A stretch of DNA of 55,233 nucleotides from Pseudanabaena sp. lw0831 (GTDB taxonomy: Bacteria; Cyanobacteriota; Cyanobacteriia; Pseudanabaenales; Pseudanabaenaceae): the NCBI RefSeq assembly GCF_016584665.1, contig NZ_BBJB01000093.1, positions 1 to 55,233 of the forward strand, in the 5' to 3' direction. Positions 35,206-55,233 of this stretch are shown here, piece by piece (positions within the stretch are counted from its first letter, which is position 1; every line of letters starts with the position of its first letter). The notes under the pieces were generated by a model. That model saw nothing but the letters and a program-made list of their open reading frames with translations. It was not told the origin of the DNA and did not search any database. The position numbers and the translations under genes were made by a program.

Positions 35206-36210
35206 CTACTTCTTCTTGCTAAACCAAATCTCCAAATCAGCAAGACTCTGAAAATCCAAAATCGCCTCAGCAAGACTCTCTAAACGAGGGCTGTGTAGTC
35301 GTGTAATTCTTGTATGTAGCTTTGGCGGTAAAGTCCCAAACTTGTGGGTAAGCTGCCTCGAAACGATCTCAACCAAACCTTCCTTGCGACCTTCTTGGCG
35401 ACCTTCTTGGCGACCTTCTTGGCGACCTTCTTGGCGACCTTCTTGGCGACCTTCTTGGCGACCTTCTTGGCGACCTTCTTGGCGACCTTCTTGGCGACCT
35501 TCTTGGCGACCTTCTTGGCGACCCTGCTGAAGTCCCAATTGCCGACCCTGCTGAAGTCCCAGTTGGCGACCTTCTTGAAGCCCTTCTTGCAAAATTTCTT
35601 GATATGTCACAGACTCACGCATGAGATCTCTCCTCAAAATTTGCTTAATAATATTTTTCTCTAAAACCAGACCAGCCAGCACATAGGTTGCAGCTCCTAT
35701 AGTTTTACGAGTATTTAGCTCAGGGATTTCATCAATTTTTTGAGCAATATCTCGCAGCAAGCTTTCCTTATTACCATCACCCACAAGTATAGCAAAAGGT
35801 AACATTCCCGTAAATTCTAAAAATTTAGCGAGGGGTTGTTCCCATAGCCTGATCACTTCAAATTCGTGGTGAGTTGTCCCATCTTCAAATTTGTGCTGAA
35901 AAACTGAATTTGAACTTGTTTCTCTGAGGTAAATAACGACCTGACGGATCTTTTTGTCGGGAAAACGTCTTTTGCCACGTACCCAATAGTCCAACATCCG
36001 AAACGGAATTTGCAGGTCGGCTTTGGTTTGAAATTCTAAGTGTAGTAGTAGTCCTTCAGCTTCCAGCAAGATTAAACTATCAGCACGAATCGGCTCTACC
36101 GCCAACTCTTGCGGCTGTACTTGAGTAAGAAGAATAGGCTCGCCAAATAGCCACGAGGCAATATCAGTAGAATAGGTTTCGGCAAGAAATTTGCAAATAT
36201 TGTCAAACAT
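35206..36210 (-). CDS. Rpn-family recombination-promoting nuclease/putative transposase with tandem-repeat linker
   Basis: 334 residues. Residues about 1-200 are a PD-(D/E)XK nuclease-like domain of the Rpn/PDDEXK_2 type (ADSLILLEAEGLLLHLEFQT then K; RMLDYWVRGKRRFP). A repeated QEGR linker (about 229-275) follows, then a DUF4351-like helical C-terminus (SRQLTHKFGTLPPKLHTRI). The linker is encoded by eleven exact 12-bp units (35389-35520) and is expected to vary in length between strains. Proteins of this group are abundant in cyanobacteria and may act in DNA exchange. ATG at 36208-36210. Confidence 0.88.
   Translation of the reverse strand: MFDNICKFLAETYSTDIASWLFGEPILLTQVQPQELAVEPIRADSLILLEAEGLLLHLEFQTKADLQIPFRMLDYWVRGKRRFPDKKIRQVVIYLRETSSNSVFQHKFEDGTTHHEFEVIRLWEQPLAKFLEFTGMLPFAILVGDGNKESLLRDIAQKIDEIPELNTRKTIGAATYVLAGLVLEKNIIKQILRRDLMRESVTYQEILQEGLQEGRQLGLQQGRQLGLQQGRQEGRQEGRQEGRQEGRQEGRQEGRQEGRQEGRQEGRQEGRQEGRKEGLVEIVSRQLTHKFGTLPPKLHTRITRLHSPRLESLAEAILDFQSLADLEIWFSKKK
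35389..35520. repeat. 12-bp minisatellite, 11 exact units
   Basis: Unit ACCTTCTTGGCG repeated eleven times without change; one degenerate unit precedes it (35377-35388) and related AGTCCC-containing units follow. In frame within the Rpn-type gene, encoding EGRQ/QEGR. Confidence 0.95.
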
Positions 36211-49948: not shown

Positions 49949-50968
49949 TTAGAGAGCGATCGCTACTTTTCTCGCCAATTCCGCCATGCGGCAGGAATAA
50001 CCCCATTCGTTGTCATACCAAGCCAATATCTTGACTTGAGTTCCATCCACAACCATTGTCGAAAGGGCATCAATGATTGCCGATCGCGAATCATCTTTGT
50101 AGTCAATGGAAACTAAGGGACGCTCTTCATAACCTAAAATCCCGTTGAGTTCTCCGTCGGCGGCTGTTTTTAATAATTGATTGACTTCCTCAATTGTGGT
50201 TTTTCTTTCTACTTCAAATACACAATCTGTAAGCGAAGCATTGAGTAAGGGCACTCGCACCGCTAATCCATTTAACTTGCCCTTGAGGTCGGGATAGATC
50301 ATCGCGATCGCAGTTGCTGATCCTGTTGTTGTCGGAATTAAAGATAAAGCCGAAGCCCTAGCACGGCGCAGATCTTTATGGGGCGCATCAACGAGGGTTT
50401 GCGTATTTGTGTTGTCATGAATCGTGGTAATTACACCATGCTTAATTCCTAAACCTTCATGGATAACTTTCACCACAGGCGCGAGGCAATTGGTGGTACA
50501 AGAGGCGGCGGTAAGAAGATGATGCTGTGCAGGATCGTAAAGATAATCGTTAATTCCCATTACGATATTGAGCGCTTCTTCTTTGACAGGAGCCGCTACG
50601 ATTACTTTCTTTACGCCCTTGGTGAAATAGGGATTTAGGGTTTCTGGGGTGCGAAATTTGCCAGAACATTCCAATACGATATCAACTCCTAATTCTTGCC
50701 AGTTGACTAATTCAGGTTTCGCATATTCGCTAAAGCTGAGCTTTTGAATTGATTTTTGATCATCGATGGCAATGCGATCGCCTATGACTTGCACATCAGG
50801 CAACCAGCGTCCATGTACTGAGTCAAATGTGAGTAAATGCGCCGCCGCTTCTATTCCGCCTTTAACTTCATTAATATGTACAAATTCCAATTCAGGAAAG
50901 CCCCAAGCAGCACGGAGAGCTAATCGACCAATTCTGCCAAAACCATTAATGCCAGCGCGCACAGCCAT
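49949..50968 (-). CDS. ArsJ-associated glyceraldehyde-3-phosphate dehydrogenase
   Basis: 339 residues. NAD-binding [14 protein letters not shown]; catalytic Cys157 in [12 protein letters not shown]; His in [11 protein letters not shown]-terminal [12 protein letters not shown]. In this context it uses arsenate in place of phosphate to give 1-arseno-3-phosphoglycerate for export by ArsJ. It differs from housekeeping GAPDH by position next to arsJ. The ATG (50966-50968) is 14 bases from the dyad at 50982-51017. Confidence 0.93.
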
Positions 50969-50981
50969 AGAGCAACCTCAG

Positions 50982-51017
50982 ATATAGATTATCATCAATA
51001 TTGATGGTAGTCTATAT
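50982..51017. promoter_or_regulatory. Probable ArsR operator (36-bp dyad)
   Basis: Symmetric about 50999/51000: core CATCAATATTGATG with outer ATATAGA/TCTATAT. ATCAA-TTGAT dyads are typical ArsR/SmtB sites. It lies between divergent GAPDH and arsR genes and would control both. Confidence 0.78.
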
Positions 51018-51046
51018 TTTGACGGCTTTCAGGTCGATATGTCAAG

Positions 51047-51427
51047 ATGGATTTTATGAAAACTGCTCAAAAAAACTTTGCAAGTGCCAATACAACTAAG
51101 CCTGAAGTTGAGGCGATCGCCCGTTGTTGTCCCCCATTGCTCAATGGTCGCATCACGTCTGAAGATACTAACTATCTTGCGGCGATTTTTCGCGTGTTGG
51201 GAGAACCAGCAAGATTACAGATTTTAAGCTTGATTTCCGCTCAACCAAGCCAAGAAGTCTGCGCTTGTGAATTGGTGGAGGCTTTAGGTTTAGCACAACC
51301 AACGGTGAGCCATCATCTCAAAGTCTTATATGAAGCAGGATTACTCACCAAAGAGCGGCGTGGAACTTGGATTTACTATCGCATCTTGCCTGAAAAATTA
51401 GCGATGTTACGGGATGCTCTTTCCTAA
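51047..51427 (+). CDS. arsR: ArsR-family arsenic-responsive repressor
   Basis: 126 residues, winged helix: LAAIFRVLGEPARLQILSLI, the arsenite-binding pair Cys72/Cys74 in EVCACELVEAL, recognition helix LAQPTVSHHLKVLYEAG and beta wing ERRGTWIYYRI. An additional Cys27-Cys28 pair near the N-terminus may bind metal. Divergent from GAPDH-arsJ across the dyad. ATG 51047 or ATG 51056. The final codons (DALS) are inside a palindrome. Confidence 0.92.
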   Translation: MDFMKTAQKNFASANTTKPEVEAIARCCPPLLNGRITSEDTNYLAAIFRVLGEPARLQILSLISAQPSQEVCACELVEALGLAQPTVSHHLKVLYEAGLLTKERRGTWIYYRILPEKLAMLRDALS

Positions 51428-51469
51428 ACAAAGGGGACGAGAATCGTCCCCTTTGTTTAGGAAAGAGCA
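51415..51469. repeat. Perfect palindrome with GAA loop spanning the arsR stop, 26-bp arms
   Basis: Arms 51415-51440 and 51444-51469 match exactly; left arm encodes the last four residues of ArsR. Confidence 0.92.
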
Positions 51470-51557
51470 ATTATCCATCTTGAGCTTCTTAAGGTTGTGT
51501 GTTCGCAAGGTTATCATCAAAGATCAATGCCATGAATTCATAAGAGTCGATCGCAAA

Positions 51558-51965
51558 ATGACCACATCAATGACCACCATTCTCGATATTGTACAATCTG
51601 ATTACGCAAAATTCCCTGAAGCGCAAACCTATAGCATCTATAGCGAGGATGTCTATTTTAAAGATCCTGTCTATAACTTTCGTGGCATCAAACAATATCA
51701 AAAGATGATCGGCTTTATTACATTTTGGTTTAAAAATCTCAAGCTTGATCTCCACGCAATTAGTCGTACAGATAATCTGATCAAAACTCGCTGGACGATG
51801 AGTTGGGATGCGCCTTTACCTTGGAAGCCGAGAATCGCGGTTACTGGCTGGAGCGATCTCACTCTTGATGAAAAGGGTGAATTAATTATTTCCCATATTG
51901 ACTATTGGGAATGCACCAAACTTGATGTCATCAAGCAGCATTTTATCAAAAAAGCCAAAAGATGA
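51558..51965 (+). CDS. DUF2358 family protein
   Basis: About 135 residues from ATG 51558; the open frame begins at 51414 but its first 48 codons lie in the arsR palindrome and leader. SYEDVYFKDP-type segment (YSEDVYFKDPVYNFRGIKQY), FWFKNLKLDLHAI and TRWTMSWDAPLPWKPRI are typical of this NTF2-like family, conserved in cyanobacteria and plastids, function unknown. The C-terminus IKKAKR lies in a palindrome. Confidence 0.88.
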   Translation: MTTSMTTILDIVQSDYAKFPEAQTYSIYSEDVYFKDPVYNFRGIKQYQKMIGFITFWFKNLKLDLHAISRTDNLIKTRWTMSWDAPLPWKPRIAVTGWSDLTLDEKGELIISHIDYWECTKLDVIKQHFIKKAKR

Positions 51966-52009
51966 GAGACTGCGCTTCGAGCAGTCTCTCATCTTTTGGC
52001 TTTTTGATC
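51945..52009. repeat. Palindrome spanning the DUF2358 stop
   Basis: 29-base left arm and 28-base right arm (A6 versus T5) with centre CTGC-GCTTCGA-GCAG. The left arm encodes the last seven residues of the DUF2358 protein. Confidence 0.9.
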
Positions 52010-52075
52010 TGTGCATAAATTTTGTACACTGAAGCTAGTGATCAGCAATCAAGATCTAAAATAGCGAGAAAATCA

Positions 52076-52885
52076 ATGTTTGCAGAAACGAGAGAATTTT
52101 CGGCTACGCAGTTTGTCAAAACCAGATGTACAACTGATGGCACACTGTCATTTTGGGCTTGGAGTGGTTATCTCTATTCGTTTATGCCCAATGAGCCAAA
52201 GCGCAAACTGTTCCAAATTGTCGGTATAAGTGTGGGGCGATGTATCGACAAAGGTGATGGGGGTTGGGACTTTACCTCTCGCGAAGTGCTGCTATATCTC
52301 GATCCTGAAACTGGTGAGATGATCCGTCATTGGCAAAATCCTTGGACTGGTGAAATGTTGCCTGTAGTCCATGTGGCTAATAGCCCTATTCAAGGTACAT
52401 TTCGCCACAATATTCCTGCCGAAGTGGAGGGCGATACGGCAACTTTTATTTTCGACCTATTTGGTCACTATCCTAATCCTCTAGCTGATGATCCTAAGTT
52501 CGCAGAATATTGCGATCGCCCAATGTACAACTCCGTAGAATTATTTAAGCTCGCGGTTCCCATTGCCGATCTTGAAGACCCTAAAGCCACAACTGTATCG
52601 AAATTAGTTCTCTCTTGGAATCGCGTGGGGCCATGGTTGCCTTGGATGAAAATGGGACAGCGAGAAGGTAATCTGATTTACAGTGCCGCTGGTAAAAAAG
52701 TCAAAGATTTTAATGCGCTACCAGAAATTCTCAAAAAAGAAATCGAAACTCGTGTGCCTATGTTTAAAGACGCACCATCAGAAAAGATTGAAGGTGAGGA
52801 AATGACTTCGTGGCAATATTTCAAGCTACATTTTGACGCTTATCAGCAAGGTGCTACATTCCCTATTCCCACATTAAGCAAGTAA
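52076..52885 (+). CDS. DUF1838 family protein
   Basis: About 269 residues from ATG 52076, with GCGAG upstream; an in-frame TTG at 52022 would add 18 unlikely residues. Motifs: FVKTRCTTDGTLSFWAWSGY, FQIVGISVGRC, TGEMIRHWQNPWTGE, WQYFKLHFDAYQQG. DUF1838 is a beta-rich family of unknown function present in cyanobacteria and proteobacteria. No signal peptide. Confidence 0.86.
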   Translation: MFAETREFSATQFVKTRCTTDGTLSFWAWSGYLYSFMPNEPKRKLFQIVGISVGRCIDKGDGGWDFTSREVLLYLDPETGEMIRHWQNPWTGEMLPVVHVANSPIQGTFRHNIPAEVEGDTATFIFDLFGHYPNPLADDPKFAEYCDRPMYNSVELFKLAVPIADLEDPKATTVSKLVLSWNRVGPWLPWMKMGQREGNLIYSAAGKKVKDFNALPEILKKEIETRVPMFKDAPSEKIEGEEMTSWQYFKLHFDAYQQGATFPIPTLSK

Positions 52886-52895
52886 AGTCTAGAAA

Positions 52896-52934
52896 TAACT
52901 TTTTTGGCGATGCTTTGCCGTGCAAAAAAAGTTA
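52896..52934 (+). terminator. Hairpin downstream of the DUF1838 gene
   Basis: TAACTTTTTTGGC pairs with GCAAAAAAAGTTA around a GCTTTGCC loop. Confidence 0.7.
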
Positions 52935-53016
52935 GTCTTTTCTCGCATAACTAGAGCGTGAGCGTTTCTGAGTTGGTGACGTAACAAATAAGGTTTTTAA
53001 TTTTTGCGATCCGCAT

Positions 53017-53105
53017 GGGGAATGAATAATTACGAATTATCAATTACGAATTACGAATGAAGAAATTTTAATTCGTAATTGATAATTCGTAATTATTCAT
53101 TCCCC
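53017..53105. repeat. 35-bp perfect inverted repeat containing TTACGAA units
   Basis: Arms 53017-53051 and 53071-53105 are exact complements with a 19-base spacer. The right arm holds the last codons (Gly, Asn, Glu) and stop of the four-helix-bundle gene; the left arm is therefore an inverted copy of that gene end. Confidence 0.92.
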
Positions 53106-53449
53106 TTCGCACTTTTCTGTATGCTCCCAATAATCCGACATAGTTCTTCTACATCGGGATGTATGCTTTCAAATTCTTTTTCGGTTAGATAATCAGTGTC
53201 TTTTAGGAGCCTTAGCCAGTAGCTTGTTTCGCGGGCTTCTTTATACGCTATTGATAGTTTGGAGATAAAGTCTGCTTTTGATTGCCCACCAATAGCTTCT
53301 TCAACATTTGCACCGATACTGGTTCCCGATCGCAATATTTGTTTAGACAGGACATATTCTTTTTTTGTGCTTGTCAAATACTGATAAAGCTTCACGATCC
53401 GCACAGCGAAGGCGTAACTTTTTTGTTGGACTACGTTTTCGGGTTTCAT
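53093..53449 (-). CDS. Four-helix bundle protein (23S rRNA intervening-sequence / bAvd-like family)
   Basis: 118 residues of PF05635 type: SYAFAVRIVKLYQYL, QILRSGTSIGANVEEAIGGQ, DFISKLSIAYKEARETSYWL, LLKDTDYL. Members form pentameric helical bundles, occur within rRNA intervening sequences, and are related to Avd, the accessory protein of diversity-generating retroelements. Here it stands alone, bracketed by TTACGAA repeats on both sides, which suggests that gene and repeats travel together. ATG at 53447-53449. Confidence 0.9.
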   Translation of the reverse strand: MKPENVVQQKSYAFAVRIVKLYQYLTSTKKEYVLSKQILRSGTSIGANVEEAIGGQSKADFISKLSIAYKEARETSYWLRLLKDTDYLTEKEFESIHPDVEELCRIIGSIQKSAKGNE

Positions 53450-53738
53450 TTTTTAAATTACGAATTACGAATTACGAGTTTTTTAATTACGAATTACGAA
53501 TTACGAATTACGAACTGATGTTACGTGGAAATCTTGAAGACTTTACAGAGACAAAAATCGTGGACTTTAAAGTGTTGATTGCCTGTAACCCTATAGATTC
53601 GTACATCTAGCCAAATCGTTCCACGTAAAATCAGTTACGAATCATGAAATTTTAACTCGTAACTCGTAATTCGTAATTCGTAATTAATCAATTCTCGTAA
53701 TTCATAATTAAAAAAAACTCGTAATTCGTAATTCGTAA
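53450..53738. repeat. TTACGAA short tandem repeat region
   Basis: Repeats of (AATTACG)n at about 53456-53513 and in opposite orientation (CGTAATT)n at 53654-53740. Between them is an inverted repeat (53513-53530 with 53619-53636, core TTACGTGGAA/TTCCACGTAA) around 88 bases without an ORF. Two 39-bp direct repeats, 53663-53701 and 53718-53756, are identical; the second contains the last codons and stop of the following minus-strand gene. Confidence 0.85.
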
Positions 53739-55233
53739 TTAATCAATTCTCGTAATCAAAGCAGAGGCATCGACCCGTCCCCAGAAATATCCCATCTCCT
53801 CGCTGGCGCGTTTGGCTCTGTCTGCTTCACGTCTGGCGGTAATGAGATCGCCTTCGCGCCAATGCAGCCATGCTAGGGCAATGCGAAGATCTGTTTCATA
53901 AATGCGATAACCGCTTGTAGTGGCATAGGTCAGCGCTTCGTCAAGATATTGTCGCGCTAGTACAAGATCGTTCTCATCTTTAGGATTCTCATTCGTGCGG
54001 AGGGAAAGCATATAGCATTGTTCTGTTTGGGAATGGGAAATTGCTTGCTTCACTTCTTGAGAAATTGGGATTAGTCCTAGACCCACCAACCAGCGACCAT
54101 AACCTAGCAATGCTGTAATGAGAACGGCACGGAAAGAAATACTACGTGCAATTTTGAGGGCTTCAGCATAATGCACTTGAGAATTGATGCCAAGATCACC
54201 GAGAACGCGATGACATTGGCTAAAAGATTTTACAAAGTGATTGTGATTGCAAATTTCAAAATTTGTCTGTGTAATATGCTGTGCATAATCTAATTCACCA
54301 AATCGGATTAAGTATTCTGCGTGAAAAATGCCTAAATCGCTATATAGATATTGTGTGTGAGGTTCTATCATACGCTGTAATATCTCAGCTTGCTGAAATG
54401 TCCTATTGGCTTTAGCATCTCCTTGCAAAAATAATATGTAAGCAAGTTTAGCAATTGAATTGCATTTGAATTCTTTGTTCTTGGCAGAATCACTCATTCT
54501 AATCGCTTCACTAGCAGAGTGAACACTTCTTCCTAGATCACCAAGAAAGATATATAAATCTGCTAGATTCCGATAGCTTACGCTAGAGTTGAGGTTGTCA
54601 GATTGAATGTAACTAATACTTCGCTCGTAAAAAGAAGGTGCTTCTCGCAAGTGTCCTAAAGCCATGAGACAGACAGCGATTGTGTTTAGAAGATAGCCTT
54701 TATTTATTGGTTGACCTACCTGTGGCTCTTGATATAGATCGCCATAGAGAAAAAATTCTTTAGTGATAGAAAGATTGGTCTCATAAGCACCGAGTACATG
54801 AGTAAGGATATAACGATATTGTTGATCAATCTTTTTCCAAGCAATATTGCTTGCCTCGTCATATACGCCTGCTTGACAAGCATGATGTACCGCTTCAATC
54901 AACGGTGCAAGTTGATCGAGCGTTGGCACTTCGGGCATTGCTCCTGCAATGTCGAGATACCAACCCTTAACTCGATTGTGAAGTTCCTGCACTGCCTCAA
55001 TGGGCTTCTCTTGCATCCGTTCCAAATAGTAAGACCTAATCAATGGATGCGTCGTATAGTGTTGCAATCGGCTATCGTAGCGCAACATCCGATACTTCGC
55101 TAACTGATGCAAAATGCCACTCGATCCCCCTAAATACACCAACGCCGACTCTTTCACTGGCAAACGGAATGCACTAAAACATTCCATCACCTCCCGTTCT
55201 GCCTCAGACAAATGCTCATCATAGCGCCGCAAC
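53739..55233 (-). CDS. STAND-type NTPase with TPR repeats, C-terminal part (partial)
   Basis: 498 visible codons; the gene enters from the right edge, so the N-terminus and NTPase domain are missing. The visible start, RRYDEHLSEAEREVMECFSA then FRLPVKES, looks like the winged-helix part that follows an NB-ARC/AP-ATPase module. From about residue 100 onward are tetratricopeptide-like repeats (INKGYLLNTIAVCLMALGHL, VSYRNLADLYIFLGDLGRSV, RIALAWLHWREGDLITARRE). Such proteins act as signal or defence switches. The last residues TRID lie in a 39-bp repeat. Confidence 0.8.
   Translation of the reverse strand, partial: LRRYDEHLSEAEREVMECFSAFRLPVKESALVYLGGSSGILHQLAKYRMLRYDSRLQHYTTHPLIRSYYLERMQEKPIEAVQELHNRVKGWYLDIAGAMPEVPTLDQLAPLIEAVHHACQAGVYDEASNIAWKKIDQQYRYILTHVLGAYETNLSITKEFFLYGDLYQEPQVGQPINKGYLLNTIAVCLMALGHLREAPSFYERSISYIQSDNLNSSVSYRNLADLYIFLGDLGRSVHSASEAIRMSDSAKNKEFKCNSIAKLAYILFLQGDAKANRTFQQAEILQRMIEPHTQYLYSDLGIFHAEYLIRFGELDYAQHITQTNFEICNHNHFVKSFSQCHRVLGDLGINSQVHYAEALKIARSISFRAVLITALLGYGRWLVGLGLIPISQEVKQAISHSQTEQCYMLSLRTNENPKDENDLVLARQYLDEALTYATTSGYRIYETDLRIALAWLHWREGDLITARREADRAKRASEEMGYFWGRVDASALITRID

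Follow-up and report, generated by a model that had tools for sequence, protein, structure and literature searches.

The stretch of DNA analysed here (the window, 55,233 nucleotides of Pseudanabaena sp. lw0831) carries close to its right-hand end a small gene of 118 codons on the reverse strand (53093..53449). By profile match, its product belongs to PF05635, the '23S rRNA-intervening sequence protein' (S23p/IVP) family (E 7.9e-32, 110.1 bits, curated cut-off 33.8), and to TIGR02436, 'four helix bundle protein' (E 5.5e-35, 119.9 bits, cut-off 24). Apart from a weak match to bAvd, no other Pfam family was found in the protein, and its AlphaFold model is a four-helix bundle with an Avd-like fold (pLDDT 94.8). 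Pfam profiles identify the neighbours as a DUF1838 gene and a gene for a TPR protein, the latter on the reverse strand and cut by the window end (53739..55232). The final codons and the stop of the TPR gene are supplied by a repeat array; its homologue in the sister genome G292 ends without an array. A remnant at 52951..53016 (reverse strand) looks by eye like the beginning of the ORF behind the TPR gene in G292 (MTIAQIENLIRYVTNAES). The Rfam scan of positions 50000-55233 gave no match at the gathering score and hence no rRNA around the window gene.

The gene is bracketed by heptamer arrays, for which the register AATTACG is used here in place of the TTACGAA of the initial annotation. On the 5′ side, a gene-proximal AATTACG array, broken by TTTTTT (53456..53514, forward strand), is accompanied by gene-distal arrays of inverted units (TAATTCG; 53653..53756, reverse strand), which extend into the end of the TPR gene. 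On the 3′ side, an AATTACG array (53028..53058, forward strand) and an array of inverted units right behind the stop codon (53069..53095, reverse strand) are the outer and the inner arm of a hairpin. They lie in an exact inverted repeat (53017..53105) with arms at 53017-53053 and 53069-53105, which takes in the last nine bases of the gene. The arrays in both orientations upstream of the gene and the inverted repeat at its end, described in the initial annotation, are confirmed; the inverted repeat is exact over 37 bp and not over 35 bp as stated there. Because the outer end of the arms carries the last codons of the gene (GGGGAATGA), the gene end does occur a second time as an inverted copy. 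Using a criterion of period 7 with 13 of 14 matching positions, we detected four arrays in the whole window, all of them 5′ of the PF05635 gene (53455-53741); the 3′ arrays do not pass because they are interrupted. No period-7 array arose in 1000 Markov-1 simulations of the region 53000-53760, and across 30 simulations no exact inverted repeat exceeded 13 bp, compared with the observed 37 bp. To judge from the sequences compared, the perfect 37-bp repeat is a trait of the window copy and not of the unit generally, the copy in G294 being imperfect.

Within the 5′ array there is also a MITE-like insertion of 122 bp (53514..53635) with the ends ACTGATGTTACGTGGAA and TTCCACGTAAAATCAGT, which the initial annotation did not mention. 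A possible 5-bp duplication, TACGA (53509-53513 and 53636-53640), is ambiguous as it is located inside the repeat. Related MITE-like copies were found on G000:C5, on G309:C92 and within the array of G311.

PF05635 genes are present at three places in the genome of the window. On contig C94, a related TPR-gene region contains one intact and two broken tandem copies with AATTACG arrays between them, and on contig C57 a divergent gene is framed by different heptamers, TTTTTAC and TTTTTCC. A 23-mer of the AATTACG repeat (at most two mismatches) matches 63 times, spread over 19 sites and 16 contigs; the reversed pattern has no hit in the same genome. There is no PF05635 gene at 17 of the 19 sites. 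Eleven gene-less loci were read: at six of them, arrays of opposite orientation form pairs, and the other five hold a single orientation. Tandem heptanucleotides are dispersed through this genome in the manner of STRR-type sequences.

Among cyanobacteria, PF05635 was detected in 129 of 291 genomes with up to 15 matches per genome. Our first sample comprised 60 cyanobacterial loci, each taken with some 10 kb of flanking sequence to either side and picked by hand from the listed matches of the same class roughly by score; small contigs and most of the near-identical copies of G119 were left aside. Nine of these loci had been viewed beforehand, and seven other previewed loci of the class, six of them without arrays, were omitted. 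Strict period-7 arrays within 200 bp were found at 43 of these 60 loci and at 14 of the 35 omitted ones, so hand selection made the first sample look better than the remainder. We therefore give the frequencies for all 95 loci, drawn from 105 same-class entries among the matches listed; two entries of G000, eight near-identical G119 copies (L128-L135) and any matches beyond those listed fall outside this set. The analyses of framing, permutation, Mantel correlation, gene-less arrays, arm length and genome-versus-lineage pairs refer to the 60 loci. Since the combined counts lower the frequency and not the contrast, they leave the odds of the main readings unchanged.

Strict arrays lie within 200 bp of the PF05635 gene at 57 of the 95 loci. 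Their density is 34.6 per 10 kb within this distance versus 1.51 per 10 kb at 0.5-2 kb, an enrichment of about 23-fold (first 60 loci: 43.6 per 10 kb versus 1.0-1.6 at 0.2-9 kb; 35 added loci: 18.9 per 10 kb near the gene). Arrays on both sides within 300 bp were observed at 44 of the 95 loci, and in 37 of these 44 the downstream unit is reverse-complementary to the upstream unit in six or seven of seven letters. When only one locus per genome is counted, the values are 31/48 for strict arrays and 17/22 for the inverted arrangement. In the 60-locus sample, 29 of 34 two-sided loci are inverted, with a permutation mean of 3.5 and a maximum of 8. Other periods are rare near the gene: none of 4-6 or 10-13 was seen, period 8 occurs at three loci and period 9 at one, and period 14 is a harmonic. 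The median copy number is 4.4 units, with detection requiring about three.

Framing by inverted arrays of the same unit was found for 27 of 60 PF05635 genes but for only 2 of 676 other ORFs in the same stretches (0/224 among small ORFs); any array within 200 bp occurs at 50 of 60 PF05635 genes and at 144 of the 676 other ORFs. Inverted pairs of same-unit arrays spaced 350-700 bp enclose PF05635 in 58 cases and other content in four, a ratio ascertained on PF05635 loci. Arrays fill 27% of the intergenic DNA beside the gene and 2.4% farther off (60 loci). The initial annotation had named two kinds of contrary evidence. Arrays equally frequent away from such genes are not what these densities and framing counts describe. 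Homologues lacking repeats do exist in part: at 38 of the 95 cyanobacterial loci, strict arrays are missing from the 200 bp around the gene.

The repeated word varies from locus to locus and includes, among others, AGGTGAC, AGGCAAT, GGGAGTA, CAGGAGT, TTAGTCA, CAGTTAT, GGGGGCA and AATTACG. A search for a single heptamer motif to which all words could be aligned in register gave no significant signal (3.57 bits versus 3.36 ± 0.16, 29 distinct words) and was discarded. With the strand taken relative to the gene, sharing of the word is correlated with protein distance (Mantel r = -0.53, 0/2000 permutations, n = 53; two proteins, L082 and L124, entered the alignment with X at stop codons). The word is shared by all 12 pairs at a protein distance below 0.10, by 92% of 24 pairs at 0.10-0.25, by 56% of 89 pairs at 0.25-0.40 and by 2-6% of pairs above 0.4. 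Close proteins (distance below 0.25) from different genomes without flanking synteny agree in their word in 13 of 15 pairs, and distant proteins inside one genome in 1 of 25. On the evidence of these alignments, the heptamer tracks the protein lineage and neither the genome nor the place. In the genus of the window, arrays are located within 300 bp at 16 of 27 loci among the matches listed, and four of these loci (L177, L179, L188 and L189) repeat AATTACG. The upstream word of the L106 lineage, TCAGTTA, is the reverse complement of TAACTGA.

Four pairs of loci share little over 20 kb beyond the gene and its array flanks, apart from short repeats. The shared segments amount to 431 bp at 96% identity (L099/L103), 439 bp at 99% within one genome, with a 122-bp insertion in one copy (L083/L084), 393 bp at 91% (L096/L107) and 496 bp at 89% plus a separate 319-bp stretch at 72% (L105/L119). 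In three of the four pairs, homology stops within an array or at its border. In L083/L084 it continues past the arrays for about 46 bp at either end, so that arrays are not always the outer ends of the unit.

The initial annotation had suggested looking for empty sites in sister strains, and sites without the gene were found at two places. At the site of L099, the genomes G251 and G235 have the order array, gene, array; G095 contains the same forward and inverted arrays and an unrelated insert but lacks the gene there, its own copy being located elsewhere, and in G097 the gene is missing and the heptamers are different ones. The second place is the end of the TPR gene next to the unit in the window: here both array and gene are absent from G292, G311 has an array and a MITE but not the gene, and G294 shows array, gene and inverted array. 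Of 200 gene-less arrays in 27 genomes, 98 match the word of a resident PF05635 gene, compared with a mean of 17.8% and a maximum of 31% under swapping of genomes. Array length varies between relatives; the ends of the unit are such variable arrays, and target-site duplications are masked inside the repeats. No transposase was detected by Pfam profiles in the gene-array unit. The earlier suggestion that gene and repeats form a mobile unit gains weight from its occurrence in different contexts and its absence from sister sites, whereas a mobility mechanism of its own was not borne out. The dispersed PF05635 copies of G119 were considered as a case of self-proliferation and rejected: ten copies were read, nine of them of a truncated or near-identical type, and the readable ends (L130, L133) are those of a larger IS-like element, ACTGACGTTACGCA / TGCGTAACATCAGT, with 5-bp duplications. 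As the readable copies sit in this element, they are not counted for mobility of the unit.

The association extends beyond cyanobacteria. The window protein has matches in 167 of 395 Bacteroidota genomes, from which 30 loci (55-68% identity) were chosen on the protein alone, with AATTACG on a set strand as the prediction. Probing with a 14-mer and three allowed mismatches, we found the word on the predicted strand upstream at 17/30 loci, downstream as the reverse complement at 16/30 and on both sides at 15/30. The wrong strand gave 3/30 on either side, and positions 630-800 bp away gave one and three. At four mismatches the contrast weakens, with 24 upstream hits on the predicted strand versus 13 on the wrong one. 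When 60 words of the same letters were ranked, AATTACG came first with 33 hits, followed by AATTAGC with 28 (mean 7.6). Strict arrays were present at 9 of the 30 loci.

In a broader scan of 80 named PF05635 loci, the best 80 by match, period-7 arrays within 250 bp were detected at 10/11 cyanobacterial loci, 15/40 loci of other phyla and 3/29 Bacteroidota loci, and inverted pairs at five, eight and none, respectively. The eight come from Rhizobiales (four), Thiohalocapsa, Polyangiaceae, Omnitrophica and Clostridia, and at some loci of the scan the period is 8 or 9 in place of 7. In six of these genomes, arrays of period 7-9 accompany 13 of 20 PF05635 loci, six of the 20 being repeated from the scan; one Mesorhizobium has four PF05635 copies with four different arrays. 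For Gammaproteobacteria, period-7 arrays were observed within 300 bp at 17 of 30 loci (one of the 30, L314, repeats L268), with 27 array segments near the gene versus six beyond 500 bp. A pairing of TAACTGA with PF05635 in this class was considered and dropped, as the pattern occurs in 1 of 369 genomes (G328) and the listed PF05635 match there adjoins TTAGCTG.

With regard to structure, the model of the window protein is closest to 2RLD (BT_0352 of B. thetaiotaomicron; 57% identity, Z 21.7), followed by 2GSC (XCC0516 of Xanthomonas campestris; Z 17.0). These structures, released in 2007 and 2006, are titled as hypothetical or of unknown function, and each has five chains. Avd, the accessory protein of DGRs, is a pentamer, and the PF05635 protein is probably a pentamer as well. 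The fold is shared with Avd chains, whether free or part of the DGR ribonucleoprotein (Z 13.8-14.7), at an identity of 18-19%; the Avd scores narrowly exceed the values of up to 13.4 reached by helical bundles that are unrelated. Where copper storage proteins and invertase inhibitors matched, they were read as common helical bundles. The Avd models stay below their cut-offs on the window protein (bAvd 27.3 bits versus 40, DivGenRetAVD 20.7 versus 80). The single RVT_1 match of the genome lies at C3:52048-52608, outside the window, which is contig C93. Reverse transcriptase matches do not track PF05635 across 15 genomes; G292 has 13 and no PF05635, and G000 has one, on another contig. The connection to a DGR on which the initial annotation had speculated is thus not supported. 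A movement by reverse transcriptase supplied in trans, as for Avd in DGRs, could appeal to the similarity of the fold, including that within the ribonucleoprotein, but appears very improbable in the light of these scores and of the distribution of reverse transcriptases.

Known heptanucleotide arrays comprise the cyanobacterial STRR, GGGAATC in Xanthomonas and TAACTGA in Beggiatoaceae and cyanobacteria. Like the arrays described here, they are tandem, mostly intergenic and often of about four units, with inverted pairs in Xanthomonas, according to the relevant passages of two reports (PMC4692102, PMC4679880). These passages name no partner gene, whereas the present arrays belong to a protein family. 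For X. campestris ATCC 33913, Rehm 2015 (PMC4692102) describes in the part concerned 186 GGGAATC arrays, most commonly of four units, and counts 70 inverted pairs that are convergent; the study found no function for them. The locus tag of the 2GSC protein, XCC0516, is from the series used there; its closest relative in 369 gammaproteobacterial genomes has 56% identity. In its section on the TAACTGA arrays, MacGregor 2015 (PMC4679880) leaves the binding protein open. The full-text literature available to us yielded no paper tying PF05635 to heptamer arrays generally, which is weak evidence of absence given its thin coverage of subscription journals.

A further comparison is offered by RAYT/REP systems, in which a gene is flanked by short inverted words and many gene-less copies of the word exist in the genome. 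RAYTs are Y1 transposases. Inverted words around the gene and numerous gene-less copies are common to both; the PF05635 product, however, is no enzyme but a four-helix bundle, its words are heptamers arranged in tandem, and no Y1 transposase gene is enclosed.

What the comparisons show is the pairing, its inverted geometry, its lineage specificity across phyla, the occurrence of the unit in unrelated settings and sister sites that lack it. Several explanations were considered. If the PF05635 protein were a regulator binding RNA or DNA, the adjacent arrays could serve autoregulation and the dispersed ones form a regulon (cf. MacGregor, Beggiatoaceae). Gene-less arrays of the cognate word are scattered in the same genomes, and a translational role has been proposed for the TAACTGA arrays of Beggiatoaceae in the passage that treats them (MacGregor 2015, PMC4679880). 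We nevertheless regard this as unlikely, because autoregulation has no need of an inverted array behind the gene and because the same unit is met with in unrelated contexts and phyla, yet sister genomes lack it. A little less probable is an RNA element in which the paired arrays form a transcript stem around the ORF and are excised by RNase III like the 23S IVS. The IVS shares with our unit the PF05635 family, a short ORF between complementary ends and a suspected mobility, and in Coxiella tandem heptamers precede the S23p ORF, as stated in a passage of Warrier 2016 (PMC4990558). Exact mirror matches of at least 20 bp between the two flanks occur at 18 of 60 loci (direct orientation 1/60, between different loci 0/60), which would suit such a stem. 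However, the array lengths of the two sides are uncorrelated (Spearman -0.04, n = 34), and a stem does not require tandem words conserved across phyla. In contrast to the IVS, the window's unit is located outside rRNA; its tandem arrays are long, its word is specific to the protein lineage, and further arrays occur elsewhere without the gene.

The arrays might also be passive, slippage-prone landing sites to which PF05635 is carried by other elements. MITE-like elements in and around arrays (window 53514-53635, G119 copies) and the different array lengths among relatives are in line with this, but other ORFs are seldom framed by inverted arrays and the word follows the protein lineage, so we give it little credence. 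Our preferred reading, which we hold to be rather probable, is that gene and inverted arrays constitute a minimal mobile (selfish) unit of about 0.45-0.6 kb, made up of an Avd-like protein with its cognate repeats. The pairing of protein and word is very likely, and that gene and arrays move as a unit is likely. Specific binding and array-directed copying are plausible steps. Counting against this reading are the loci without strict arrays (the 38 cyanobacterial and most Bacteroidota ones), the illegible target-site duplications, the unmatched array lengths on the two sides, the homology running past the arrays in L083/L084, the G119 copies carried by an IS-like element and the genome G328, which has TAACTGA arrays, yet another word beside its listed PF05635 match.

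As a mechanism for the minimal mobile unit, we propose that the Avd-like bundle, which is probably pentameric, pairs specifically with the heptamer that accompanies its gene. Through the arrays, the unit would carry an identical word at either end, similar to terminal inverted repeats, and gene-less arrays of this word elsewhere would be derivatives or docking sites. The pentamer would bind the tandem word, at a guess as single-stranded DNA or RNA. Copying to new sites might then be achieved by host replication or recombination, through annealing or template switching between arrays. Host enzymes are invoked since the gene has no linked transposase, recombinase or reverse transcriptase, and we regard annealing or template switching as most likely because moved units mostly end in arrays and because arrays remain at sites that lack the gene. 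With its mirrored gene end, the window's perfect 37-bp repeat would fit a fold-back copying. We consider the unit a new kind of element: a gene for a non-enzymatic protein, framed by short tandem words of its own, is by our tests not an IVS, a DGR or a RAYT/REP system, though the 23S IVS may prove to be a special case.

More tentatively, PF05635 genes with arrays of heptamers (sometimes 8- or 9-mers) could be minimal mobile elements throughout the bacteria. A pentamer would read the tandem word, perhaps with one repeat per protomer, movement would proceed without an enzyme of its own via host replication or annealing, and the cyanobacterial arrays, GGGAATC of Xanthomonas, TAACTGA of Beggiatoaceae and the 23S IVS would be footprints of such elements. 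The heptamer arrays of cyanobacteria, Xanthomonas and Beggiatoaceae had no known partner, and a co-travelling protein family makes the question of a partner testable. At the same time, the IVS-protein family represented by 2GSC and 2RLD gains a concrete candidate substrate. One word per protein lineage suggests a recognition code, and the pairing of gene and repeat offers an explanation for the so far unexplained heptamer repeats of bacteria.

A MITE-like element lies inside a heptamer array of the window (53514-53635), and elements of this kind also surround the PF05635 copies at two loci of another genome, G119 (L130 and L133). The elements of the window and of G119 have similar ends, ACTGAYGTTACG...CGTAAMATCAGT, and apparent 5-bp duplications are seen at both. 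Other repeats were detected beside PF05635 units elsewhere. In genome G187, a stretch of about 130 bp adjoining the unit (positions 1394-1526 of the L083 query) has about 20 high-identity occurrences in the genome and is apparently another small element, lodged among the heptamer arrays. At L115 in G282, a 50-bp repeat of GGGGGCA-type heptamers follows downstream of the PF05635 gene in at least 10 tandem copies. The window itself carries a further tandem array at 35377-35571, where 12 copies of a 12-bp repeat adjoin a 24-bp tandem repeat.

The second PF05635 place in the genome of the window, on contig C94 (L006, 1609-2550), comprises a tandem of one intact and two broken copies, which are separated by AATTACG arrays; both broken copies begin at the identical internal codon (TCGGGAACCAGC). 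Since near-identical TPR-gene sequence terminates both the window contig, C93 (right end, 55233), and C94 (at the start of L006), the break in the assembly probably lies at a duplicated TPR gene.

One branch of PF05635 is marked by RRSSRSVCANLAEAWRKRRY; seven of its loci were sampled, and the looser criterion detects no array at five of these (L093, L101, L109, L114 and L122). This may be a settled, non-mobile branch of the family.
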